Below, piece after piece: positions 5,407-13,309 of a DNA stretch of 64,000 bases. Every line of letters starts with the position of its first letter. The stretch's first letter is position 1. The stretch covers positions 1 to 64,000 of the forward strand of contig JABIFY010000112.1 of NCBI GenBank assembly GCA_018650465.1, read 5' to 3'. This stretch comes from Alphaproteobacteria bacterium (GTDB taxonomy: Bacteria; Pseudomonadota; Alphaproteobacteria; UBA2966). The position numbers were made by a program, and so were the translations under genes. Under the pieces are notes generated by a model. It made no database searches. It was not told where the DNA came from and worked only from the letters and a program-made list of their open reading frames with translations.

Positions 5407-6159
5407 ATGAATGCTTTGCTCTCCAAAACACCCTCACAAAAGTTGCCCGCCTCCATGTGTGCCGCCTGTGGGGCGCAGCTGTTGTCTATGTGTGCGTCGC
5501 TGGACAGGGCGGGCCGGGATGAGCTGGAGGCGTTGTTGGAGCCAGTGTCACTGGCGTCGGGGGATGTGTTGTTTGAGGAAGGCGCGCCCGCAACACGATC
5601 CTTTAATCTGATTGAGGGCTGCCTCAAGCTTTACAAATTGTTGCCGGACGGGCGGCGGCTGGTGACGGATTTTTTGTATCCGGGCGATTTTCTCGGACTG
5701 GCGGACAAGGACCATTATACCTGCACGGCTGAAGCTGTCGGGGCGGCTACCCTGTGCCGGTTTGAACGCTCGGCCCTCGATGATCTGGTTCAGCGTCAGT
5801 CCTGTCTGGAAGGGCATTTGCTGGATCGGGCACGGGCCGAACTGGCTGACGGGCGGTCGCAGTTATTGTTGTTGGGCCACAAGACAGCACGGGAGCGGGT
5901 GGCGTCGTTTATTTTGACTCAATCGGCGCGGGCCGTGCAGCGGGGATTATCGGCATCGCCCGTGGAAACGCCCATGCGCCGGGTGGATATTGCCGATCAT
6001 CTGGGCCTGACCACGGAAACTGTAAGCCGCACCCTGACAGGTCTGACCGCGGACGGCATGATCGGGGTGGAGGCCGGGCGGCGCATTATCATTCGGGAAA
6101 CGGATCAACTTGCAGCATTGGCTGCCGGGCACAAATTCCACAAATTCATCAAAAATTGA
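5407..6159 (+). CDS. Crp/Fnr-family oxygen-responsive transcription regulator (FnrN/FnrL type)
   Basis: A 250-residue regulator with an N-terminal cyclic-nucleotide-type beta-roll and a C-terminal winged helix-turn-helix. Cys18, Cys21 and Cys29 (C-x2-C-x7-C) plus Cys106 match the four ligands of the oxygen-labile [4Fe-4S] cluster in FnrN proteins. The recognition helix contains ETVSR, the Glu, Ser and Arg that read TTGAT-N4-ATCAA. It should activate or repress genes when oxygen is low. An FNR-like box lies upstream and two more lie over and just past its stop codon, so autoregulation and control of the small downstream gene are likely. A role in micro-oxic respiration is known for the family but not shown here. 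Confidence 0.92.
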   Translation: MNALLSKTPSQKLPASMCAACGAQLLSMCASLDRAGRDELEALLEPVSLASGDVLFEEGAPATRSFNLIEGCLKLYKLLPDGRRLVTDFLYPGDFLGLADKDHYTCTAEAVGAATLCRFERSALDDLVQRQSCLEGHLLDRARAELADGRSQLLLLGHKTARERVASFILTQSARAVQRGLSASPVETPMRRVDIADHLGLTTETVSRTLTGLTADGMIGVEAGRRIIIRETDQLAALAAGHKFHKFIKN

Positions 6160-9385: not shown

Positions 9386-9775
9386 CTAACCCTTCGCCGC
9401 CGTGGCTTCGATCTCGATTAACATGTCGGGTGAAGCCAGGCCGTTGACGATCAGCAAAGTTGACGCAGGTACCGTGGCATCGCCAATGACCTTTTTACGG
9501 GCGGCGCGATATTCGGCAATGTGGCGACTGTCGGTCAAAAAGACGGTGAACTTCACCAGATCCTTTTTGGCCATGCCCCCATCTTTCAGACAGGCAAGAA
9601 TATTGCGAAAGACCTGCTCCGCCTGCTTGCGGATGCCCGGCTGCAATTTACCTTTGGCATCCAGACCGACCTGACCTGAAATCACCAGCCAGTTGGCACC
9701 GGCGGGCACGGCCACAGTGTGGCTATAGGCCCCAAGGGGCGTGGCGACGGTTTTTGGATTGCTGGCTTTGTTCAT
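9386..9775 (-). CDS. RidA/YjgF/UK114-family protein
   Basis: A 129-residue protein of the RidA superfamily, trimeric enzymes that hydrolyse reactive enamine/imine intermediates from PLP enzymes. SGQVGLDAKGKL and the C-terminal LIEIEATA region fit. The canonical catalytic Arg near residue 105 of E. coli RidA is not obvious: the equivalent segment reads VPASTLLIVNGLASPDMLIEIEA, so it may belong to a non-archetypal Rid subfamily. ATG 9775 is preferred to a longer in-frame start because CAGGAG lies about 8 bases upstream. Confidence 0.85.
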   Translation of the reverse strand: MNKASNPKTVATPLGAYSHTVAVPAGANWLVISGQVGLDAKGKLQPGIRKQAEQVFRNILACLKDGGMAKKDLVKFTVFLTDSRHIAEYRAARKKVIGDATVPASTLLIVNGLASPDMLIEIEATAAKG

Positions 9776-9909
9776 GATTTCCACTCCTGTAAACGTTGAT
9801 TTCCCCCAGATTAGAGAAAAATTCACTCAGAAACATCCCGGAAACCTTTTTAGTGCGCAGACAAGGCATATTCCTTTCAACAGCACCCAAGCAAACAAAC
9901 GAGGAAATC

Positions 9910-10147: not shown

Positions 10148-11578
10148 TCACGCACTCACCATCGGCCTGCGATCCACCCAGGGCCGGGCCTGTTCCAGTT
10201 GTCCGGCGAGGCGAAATAAAGTGGCTTCGTCCGCATAACGACCGATGATTTGCATGCCTAACGGCAAACCATTTTCACTCCATTGCAAGGGCAAGGTCAT
10301 GGCGGGCTGCCCGGTGGCGTTGAACATGGAGGTAAAGCCGGAATATTGGCCCAGTCTGCGAATATGTTCGTCGCGGGCCTCCGCCGTGAAGGCAAAATAT
10401 CCCAGCGGGGCCGGATCGCGGCACAAGGTCGGCGTTAGCCAGACATCAAATGTATTGAACAAAAGTGCTATATCGCGGCTCATGGCTTGCAGGTCTTCGA
10501 TGGCGGCAAGGTACTCCGCTGCACTGACACGCTGGTTGCTTTGATACATGCGCCAGGTCACGCCTTCAAAATCGGCCTCGGTGGCACTGCGACCCAGCTT
10601 TTTCTCCCAGGACTTTACAGCCCAGCCCAACATGCCAACCCAGACCCGGCCAAAGGCCTTCAAGGCACGGGGACGATCCAGTGTGGGTTGTGCCTCTTCC
10701 ACTGTATGGCCCAGGCTTTCGCATAATTTCGCCGTATCTTCCAAAGCTGCACGTACTTCGTCGGTCACAGCCACACCCGTTAGCGGCAAACTGGAAAAGG
10801 CGATGCGCAATTTGCCCGGATCGCGCCGGACTTCTTGTGCATAAGGGCGTTCGGGCGGGGCTGGAAAATAAGGATCACCGGGCATCGCACCGTGGGTAGC
10901 ATCGAGTAACGCGGCACTGTCCCGCACCGTACGACTGACCACATGTTGGGCCACAATGCCGTTGGCCATATCACCAGCCGGGGCCATTGAATTGCGCCCG
11001 CGTGTCGGTTTCAGCCCCACCAAACCACAGGCCGACGCGGGAATGCGAATGGAACCACCGCCGTCATTGGCATGAGCCACCGGCACGATGCCAGCCGCCA
11101 CGGCAGCACAGGCCCCCCCGGAGGAGCCACCCGAACCCAGTTCGGGGTTCCAGGGGTTTCGCGTTACTCCATAAAGTTCCGGCTCCGTCGTCGGCAGCAG
11201 GCCAAATTCCGGGGTGTTGGTCTTGCCCATGATATTCAGACCGGCACGTTTAAACCGCGCTGTCAGTTCGCTGTCTTCTGGTGAGACATAGCCCCGCATA
11301 AAACGGGAGCCCTCTTCCATCTTCACCCCGGCCAGTTCTGCGCCGATGTCTTTCATCAAGAAGGGCACACCCCTGAACGGTCCATCTGGCAAATCTTTGC
11401 TGGCTTCGCGGGCAAGATCATACAACGGATTAATGATGGCATTGATTTCAGGATTGAGCTGCTCGGCACGCTCGATGGCACCTTCCAGCAGCTCTATGGG
11501 GCTGATTTCGCCCTTTTGCACCAGCTCAGCCTGGGCCGTGGCATCCATCCAGGCGATGTTGTCTTCCTGTGTGCTCAT
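10148..11578 (-). CDS. Amidase-signature family amidohydrolase
   Basis: A 476-residue serine amidase. The Ser-cisSer-Lys triad is visible: Lys76 in VPFLMKDIG, cis-Ser152 in the GGSSGG loop and nucleophile Ser176 in [11 protein letters not shown]. The full-length fold looks intact. The family includes aryl-acylamidases, 6-aminohexanoate cyclic dimer hydrolase and GatA; this one is not GatA because no gatB/C lie nearby. It probably hydrolyses a carboxylic amide in the cytosol. It is divergent from the dehalogenase-like gene at 11678, separated by 99 bases. Confidence 0.9.
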
Positions 11579-11677: not shown

Positions 11678-12409
11678 TTGTCTGTACAAAATAGCACCAT
11701 ACTCATCACCAATGTCACCAGTTTTGTCGGTAAGCCGGGTTGTCAGGCCCTGCTGGACGGCGGGGCCAATATCATGGTCCACGACCGCAGTTTCGCCGAA
11801 GCTGAGGGTCGTGCGGCCTTCGAAGCTGAAGTGCCGGGCGTGCATGCACTGGCCGCACAAACACCGGAAGAAATTGTGGCCGAAGCTGAAGCCCTGGCCC
11901 CTGTGGACGTACTGATCAACAATGATGACGGGGCCGCCAAGCGGGCAAAAATTGAAGACGCTGACCCGGCTGATTTACGTGAGGCCCTGGAAAGCATGGT
12001 CGTCTGGCCTTTTGTTTTGACCGGTGCCATGACCCCGGCCATGAAGGCACGCAAATCCGGCAAGATCATCTTTGTGACCTCCGCCACGCCACTGCGTGGT
12101 TTGCCCAATTATTCCATGTATGTGACGGCGCGGGGGGCGACAAACTCCCTTACCCTGTCCCTGGCCCACGAACTGGCGGGACATAACATCCAGGTCAATG
12201 CCCTGGCCCCCAACTTCGTCGAAAGCGAGGCATATTTCCCAAAGGTATTGAGAGATAATCCCGAAACCCTGGCGAAGATCACGAAAAACATCCCGCTCGG
12301 TCGCCTGGCCAAACCGGAAGAAGTCGGCAAGGTGCTGGCGTTCCTGTCGGGTGATGGTTCTGATTTCATCACGGGCATGGTCATGCCTTATGCCGGCGGT
12401 TGGGCTTGA
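11678..12409 (+). CDS. Halohydrin dehalogenase-like SDR (HHDH family)
   Basis: A 243-residue SDR-fold protein with the signatures of halohydrin dehalogenases rather than dehydrogenases. The NAD loop TGxxxGxG is replaced by TNVTSFVG at residues 11-18, exactly the T-x4-F-x-G anion-pocket motif of HHDHs, and the catalytic set is Ser135, Tyr148 and Arg152, with Arg in place of the SDR Lys. HheC has Ser132, Tyr145 and Arg149 with the same spacing. KSGKIIFVTSATP and VDVLINND also parallel HheC. Such enzymes convert vicinal halohydrins to epoxides plus halide and open epoxides with nucleophiles. TTG start at 11678 follows GGGGAG with a 6-base gap. Activity is inferred from motifs. Confidence 0.86.
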   Translation: MSVQNSTILITNVTSFVGKPGCQALLDGGANIMVHDRSFAEAEGRAAFEAEVPGVHALAAQTPEEIVAEAEALAPVDVLINNDDGAAKRAKIEDADPADLREALESMVVWPFVLTGAMTPAMKARKSGKIIFVTSATPLRGLPNYSMYVTARGATNSLTLSLAHELAGHNIQVNALAPNFVESEAYFPKVLRDNPETLAKITKNIPLGRLAKPEEVGKVLAFLSGDGSDFITGMVMPYAGGWA

Positions 12410-12481
12410 CCCATACCGCCCATCAAACAAACTGGTTGGGCTTGACCCATATCGCCCATCAAACAAACTGGTTGGGCTTGA
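12398..12481 (+). repeat. 36-bp tandem repeat, 2.3 copies, over the dehalogenase stop codon
   Basis: Copies begin at 12398, 12434 and 12470; the first two differ at one base. The first copy contains the last codons and TGA of the dehalogenase-like gene; each later copy repeats those bases, so the sequence past the stop re-creates the gene's end. It looks like a recent slippage duplication in the gap before the next SDR. Confidence 0.9.
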
Positions 12482-12523: not shown

Positions 12524-13309
12524 ATGTCTGACAAAATTTTTGATCTGACCGGCAAGGTAGCCGTCATCACGGGTTCGACCAAAGGCATTGGCAAGGCCAT
12601 CGCTGAACAGATGTCTCGCGCCGGGGCCAAAGTTGTCATCTCGTCCCGTAAAGCAGGTCCCTGTGACGACGTCGCGGCGGAAATCAATGCAGCCGGTGGC
12701 GAGGCTGTGGCCATACCTTGTCATATCGGCGACAAGGACCAGTGCAAAAACCTGATCGACAGCACGATTGAAAAATGGGGCAAGATCGACATTCTGGTCT
12801 GCAACGCCGCTGTCAATCCGTATTACGGATCCATGAGCGACATTCCCGACGATCTTTTCGACAAGACCATGTCAACCAACATCAAATCCAACGCCTGGCT
12901 GGCAACGATGGCCGCACCACAAATGCGGGCGCGTAAAGATGGCGTCATCATCATTACGTCATCCATTGGCGGTTTGATAGGCGACGCTAATATCGGCGTT
13001 TACTCCATCTCGAAGGCCGCCGATATGCAGCTGGCCCGCAACCTGGCCGTGGAATGGGGCCCGGACAATATCCGCGTCAACTGCATCGCCCCCGGCCTGG
13101 TGCGGACAGATATGGCCAAGGCCTTGTGGGAAAATCCCGACATCTACAAACGCGTGACGTCCAGCGCACCTCTGCGACGCATTGGCGAGCCCAATGAAAT
13201 CGCCGGAGCCGCCGTCTACCTGGCTTCAAGTGCCGGCAGTTTCACGACCGGCCAGACCATGGTCATTGATGGCGGCGTCACTATCGCAGGTTCGCCGCCT
13301 GTGGAGTGA
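12524..13309 (+). CDS. Short-chain dehydrogenase/reductase (SDR), classical type
   Basis: A 261-residue NAD(P)-dependent SDR with TGSTKGIG at 16-23, NAA in place of NNAG near 94, catalytic Ser147, Tyr160 and Lys164, and a C-terminal GQTMVIDGG common to FabG-like enzymes. Unlike the gene before it, it keeps the cofactor loop and the Lys, so it is a true oxidoreductase. Co-directional position after the halohydrin dehalogenase-like gene suggests it may act on the alcohol or ketone product, but this is inference. A strong terminator follows. Confidence 0.9.
   Translation: MSDKIFDLTGKVAVITGSTKGIGKAIAEQMSRAGAKVVISSRKAGPCDDVAAEINAAGGEAVAIPCHIGDKDQCKNLIDSTIEKWGKIDILVCNAAVNPYYGSMSDIPDDLFDKTMSTNIKSNAWLATMAAPQMRARKDGVIIITSSIGGLIGDANIGVYSISKAADMQLARNLAVEWGPDNIRVNCIAPGLVRTDMAKALWENPDIYKRVTSSAPLRRIGEPNEIAGAAVYLASSAGSFTTGQTMVIDGGVTIAGSPPVE

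Follow-up and report, generated by a model that had tools for sequence, protein, structure and literature searches.

Does the open reading frame at positions 11678-12409 (plus strand) of the window, the 64,000-nucleotide stretch of alphaproteobacterial DNA analysed here, encode a halohydrin dehalogenase (HHDH) or an ordinary SDR, and what would such an enzyme do in its host? The first-pass annotation had read it as a new HHDH-family gene from a T-x4-F-x-G motif and the residues Ser135-Tyr148-Arg152, and motif and residue numbers were both correct on the translation of the frame, which starts with TTG and gives a protein of 243 amino acids. Motif 1 (T-x4-F-x-G; residues 11-18, positions 11708-11731, plus strand) reads TNVTSFVG, with T11, F16 and G18, and corresponds to the nucleophile-pocket loop that replaces the SDR cofactor loop. 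Motif 2 (S-x12-Y-x3-R; residues 135-152, positions 12080-12133, plus strand) reads SATPLRGLPNYSMYVTAR and holds the catalytic triad S135, Y148 and R152. The window protein thus carries both fingerprints given for HHDHs in the available portions of two articles, T-x4-F/Y-x-G and S-x12-Y-x3-R (PMC11976700; PMC4989007), and the match exceeds chance. The classical SDR signature (the TG-x3-G/A-x-G cofactor loop and Y-x3-K) was absent from it. The TTG start is supported by its conservation in a sister species (locus L014), together with that of the purine-rich GGAGAAGA stretch on its 5' side. The gene is under purifying selection, with a dN/dS of 0.09 against the 85% identical ortholog of the sister species.

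A phmmer search of the PDB returned as best match 6a41, labelled 'dehalogenase' (E 6.7e-64, residues 3-243). Each of the nine distinct sequences ranked after it carries a halohydrin dehalogenase or halohydrin epoxidase label. Below 6a41 came the sets of HheC and HheA, and then HheD-type entries and the first ordinary SDRs. Identity to the window protein was 47.3% for 6a41, 37.6% for HheC, 34.9% for HheD2, 32.6% for both HheA2 and 8xxb (a HheD8 variant by its entry title), and 30.1% for HheB. The closest relative of solved structure, 6a41, bears only the names 'dehalogenase' and 'Dehalogenation enzyme' in its entries, and our literature search found no paper on it as a dehalogenase. Pfam and NCBIfam were uninformative here, because both matched SDR families only and none of the best 25 of 203 NCBIfam matches reached its cut-off.

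To place the protein, we built a maximum-likelihood tree of 68 proteins. Besides the window protein, it contained 40 motif 2-bearing relatives, 21 SDRs (six encoded in the window's own genome) and six HHDHs of solved structure (types A, B, C and D, entry 8xxb, and 6a41, with types E, F and G left out). The 47 HHDH rows were split from the 21 SDR rows by a 100/100 branch, which was present in 100% of 200 bootstrap trees, so the window protein does not lie among ordinary SDRs, the placement that the first-pass annotation had named as refuting its reading. It paired with the ortholog of the sister species (100/99), and the pair was joined next by relatives in two further families of alphaproteobacteria (98/98). 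A 42-row branch contained HheA, HheC, 6a41 and the window protein (94/94, just under the value that the tool stars), and HheB and HheD lay on a separate sub-branch (100/99); on this topology the window protein falls on the A/C branch with HheA, HheC and 6a41, not with HheB and HheD.

We then counted residue columns in the same 68 rows. The rows had been sorted into HHDHs and SDRs by motif 2, so that the Ser, Tyr and Arg counts among the HHDHs follow from the sorting itself and are not independent; motif 1 played no part in the sorting. Among the SDR rows, the position of Arg152 was Lys in all 21, and that of Phe16 was Gly in 19 and a gap in two. In the 47 HHDH rows, the Thr column of motif 1 held Thr in 44 and Ser in three, its aromatic column Phe in 40, Tyr in four and Trp in three, and its Gly column Gly throughout. 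The Pro178 column of the HHDHs was more varied (33 P, 7 S, 5 Q, 2 A), and the Asn179 column held Asn in 46 and His in one, against Gly in 19 and Thr in two of the 21 SDR rows. One of the three rows with Ser for Thr was L017 (of which L011 is a duplicate), and such relatives would be missed by strict motif searches. Three alphaproteobacterial relatives, L050, L053 and L054, lacked a strict motif 1; they are probably the three HHDH rows with Trp for Phe/Tyr, a variant beyond the published motif.

Comparison with characterized and solved members of the family brought out both likenesses and differences. The protein 6a41 and its alphaproteobacterial relatives share the motifs and are 47% identical to the window protein over the full length, 6a41 being its best match in both sequence and fold, and within the A/C branch 6a41 stands in a starred group of its own (five rows, 100/100). 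HheC of Agrobacterium radiobacter AD1 (1pwx) aligned one to one in triad and pocket residues, T7, F12, G14, S132, Y145 and R149 with T11, F16, G18, S135, Y148 and R152, and P175, N176, Y177 and L178 with P178, N179, F180 and V181. The last four residues (positions 12209-12220, plus strand) form a putative halide-pocket loop, since we take residues 175-178 of HheC to be its halide-pocket loop; two of them differ from HheC, with Tyr177 replaced by Phe180 and Leu178 by Val181. Taken together, the residues lining the halide pocket of HheC are largely conserved. According to the part of PMC11976700 that deals with HheC, its Phe12 contacts the halide. The C-terminal extension of HheC with Trp249, described in the available text of PMC4989007, is absent from the window protein, which ends where residue 244 of HheC lies. 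HheA/HheA2 (1zmo, 4z9f) belong to the same branch and are of nearly the same length (244 against 243 amino acids), but a near-identical plasmid copy in Microbacterium adjoins an epoxide hydrolase and a glycerol kinase, and the window gene adjoins neither. The HheD and HheB types (7b73, 8xxb, 4zd6) belong to the same SDR-derived family and carry the same kind of motifs, but they are only 30-35% identical to the window protein and occupy the separate sub-branch. In a tblastn search, 24 plasmid records matched at 28-40% identity, and one, H3, was labelled haloalcohol dehalogenase. A Tistrella HHDH is treated in the accessible portion of PMC7321119, and that of PMC6941271 reports no HHDH in its Rhodococcus.

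Motifs, solved relatives, tree and pocket residues, with the structural model described below, bear out the assignment to the HHDH family. We consider it highly likely that the gene encodes a cofactor-independent HHDH of the A/C branch, an activity assigned from sequence. The description of the gene as 'new' holds for the sequence but not for the type, since the A/C branch is known and close relatives occur in many alphaproteobacteria; the gene is very probably one more sequence of a known enzyme family. As HHDHs find biocatalytic use for chiral epoxides and substituted alcohols, a sequence of the A/C branch is a usable candidate there.

By homology with HheC, the enzyme would convert a vicinal haloalcohol to an epoxide and halide, along the lines of the mechanism set out for HHDHs in the relevant part of PMC4989007. 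Ser135 would hold the substrate hydroxyl, and Tyr148, its pKa lowered by Arg152, would take the hydroxyl proton; the alkoxide would then displace the neighbouring halide to give the epoxide. The halide would exit into a pocket that the motif 1 loop, with F16, forms together with the loop P178-N179-F180-V181 at the site where SDRs hold NAD(P), and the reverse reaction might proceed with other small anions. The analysis shows family membership, triad, pocket residues, fold and the loss of the cofactor loop; we infer the activity, and likewise its direction in the cell and its substrate.

HHDHs of the A/C branch are common in alphaproteobacteria. At E <= 1e-50, a sample of 385 alphaproteobacterial genomes contained 36 with a match, the window's own included, and a draw of 398 from the phylum contained two, namely its own and one of the same class. 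Within its own order, 6 of 15 genomes (its own included) had matches at E <= 1e-45, all of them in its own family. The HHDHs of this family were scattered in the tree: the window protein and L016/L017 (of which L010 and L011 are duplicates) fell into different starred sets, and the pair L012/L013 stood apart, on an unresolved part of the A/C branch. Because the members of the family do not all group together, this pattern suggests transfer or ancient duplications in place of simple descent, within a tree whose deep branching order is unresolved.

Although the A/C branch is this common, the natural role of the family is unsettled, as far as the consulted text of PMC4989007 goes. An enzyme that is a HHDH by descent could naturally catalyze another reaction of epoxides and anions, for example the opening or closure of a native metabolite's epoxide with a non-halide nucleophile, and dehalogenate only as a side activity. 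The frequency of the clade in alphaproteobacteria would fit this, as would the surroundings of the gene in four genomes of one alphaproteobacterial family (L075-L078), where purK and purE adjoin the HHDH and, in three of the four, coq9 and a peptide deformylase lie on its other side, the Pfam names being taken from one of these genomes. According to the portion of this 2016 review consulted (PMC4989007), an epoxide hydrolase accompanied no more than two of the known HHDH genes, and other physiological functions are for this reason kept possible for HHDHs. Against such a role stand the largely conserved halide-pocket residues, and none of the loci compared had a common neighbour pointing to another reaction. 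On this evidence, a different natural reaction is possible but doubtful. In the four genomes with purK and purE, the HHDH lies in housekeeping surroundings, as though the gene had long been resident there.

The gene neighbourhood in the window was compared with those of relatives. The HHDH gene lies between a divergently transcribed gene for an amidase-signature-family protein (positions 10148-11578, minus strand; PF01425), which is in turn adjoined by a RidA-family gene (Ribonuc_L-PSP; positions 9386-9826, minus strand; PF01042), and a gene for an ordinary SDR oxidoreductase that carries TGxxxGxG and YxxxK (positions 12524-13309, plus strand). The sister species has the same order of RidA, amidase, HHDH and SDR, at 85-93% identity, as would be expected if the four acted in one local pathway, in which the SDR would oxidize an alcohol and amidase and RidA would handle a nitrogenous precursor or product. 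However, this order was found only in one genus, in two of its species; the amidase gene is transcribed away from the HHDH gene, its counterpart in the sister species matches in two reading frames, and relatives at 51-61% identity (L010-L013, L015-L022) have other neighbours, without counterparts of RidA, amidase or SDR. Across 20 regions, the window and 11 further loci, nothing in the HHDH neighbourhoods was constant beyond the genus. A 28% identical amidase was found about 3 kb from the HHDH in L018, and SDRs of only about 30% identity near it in L016 and L017; neighbours in other relatives include a TauD-type dioxygenase, a Rieske ring-hydroxylating enzyme, acyl-CoA dehydrogenases and a sulfotransferase. 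We regard a local pathway as unlikely.

The amidase and SDR neighbours are thus as the first-pass annotation had described them, and its remark that the setting is unusual is true but a weak claim, as one species and one sister say little about the family. The setting reveals no pathway, because it is common to one sister species only and the neighbours of the other relatives are unrelated. A broader proposal, that the alphaproteobacterial A/C branch consists of native metabolic enzymes for epoxides or halohydrins and not of tools for man-made pollutants, and that in this genus the HHDH, together with the adjoining SDR, RidA and amidase, acts on a natural halohydrin or epoxide that contains nitrogen, has in our estimate only a slim chance of being right. 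We also considered an operon with an epoxide hydrolase and rejected it: none lies directly beside the window HHDH, and the one EHN-domain epoxide hydrolase-type protein (PF06441) is encoded on another contig of the genome (contig 163). The sister amidase (L014:3271-4696) matched as two overlapping pieces in different frames, reflecting either a frameshift or an assembly error.

An AlphaFold model of the window protein, built from 12 sequences, had a mean pLDDT of 83.5 and was weak in the catalytic and pocket loops, around residues 141-150 (block pLDDT 58) and 181-190 (59), and also in a loop around 201-210. Foldseek searches with the model returned only 6a41, HheC or HheA at ranks 1-15, with 6a41 at the top (TM 0.87), and VIA-align also ranked 6a41 first (Z 29.4, rmsd 2.9, 239 aligned). 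As to an SDR fold with a nucleophile pocket in place of the cofactor site, the residues align and the fold matches, in a ligand-free model whose loops are weak. HheC (5kwe) and the ketoreductase SDR 3grp both scored Z 27.0; with HheC and ordinary SDRs nearly tied, the fold alone is not decisive, and residues and tree decide. Many SDRs nearly equalling HheC in fold Z, and the SDR-only family matches (for NCBIfam, among the best 25 of 203), would suit an ordinary NAD(P)-dependent SDR with a chance likeness to HHDHs, but the lack of a glycine-rich loop, the replacement of Lys by Arg and the 100/100 separation from all 21 SDRs make this exceedingly improbable, and we rejected it on tree and residues.

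At the 3' end of the HHDH gene, a 36-bp unit in 2.3 tandem copies (positions 12398-12481) spans the stop codon and the intergenic region, and this is the sole occurrence of the repeat pattern in the genome. Folded as RNA, the repeat was unremarkable (z -1.17). Diverged copies of the 36-bp repeat occur at the same place in the sister species (L014, about 5549-5633).
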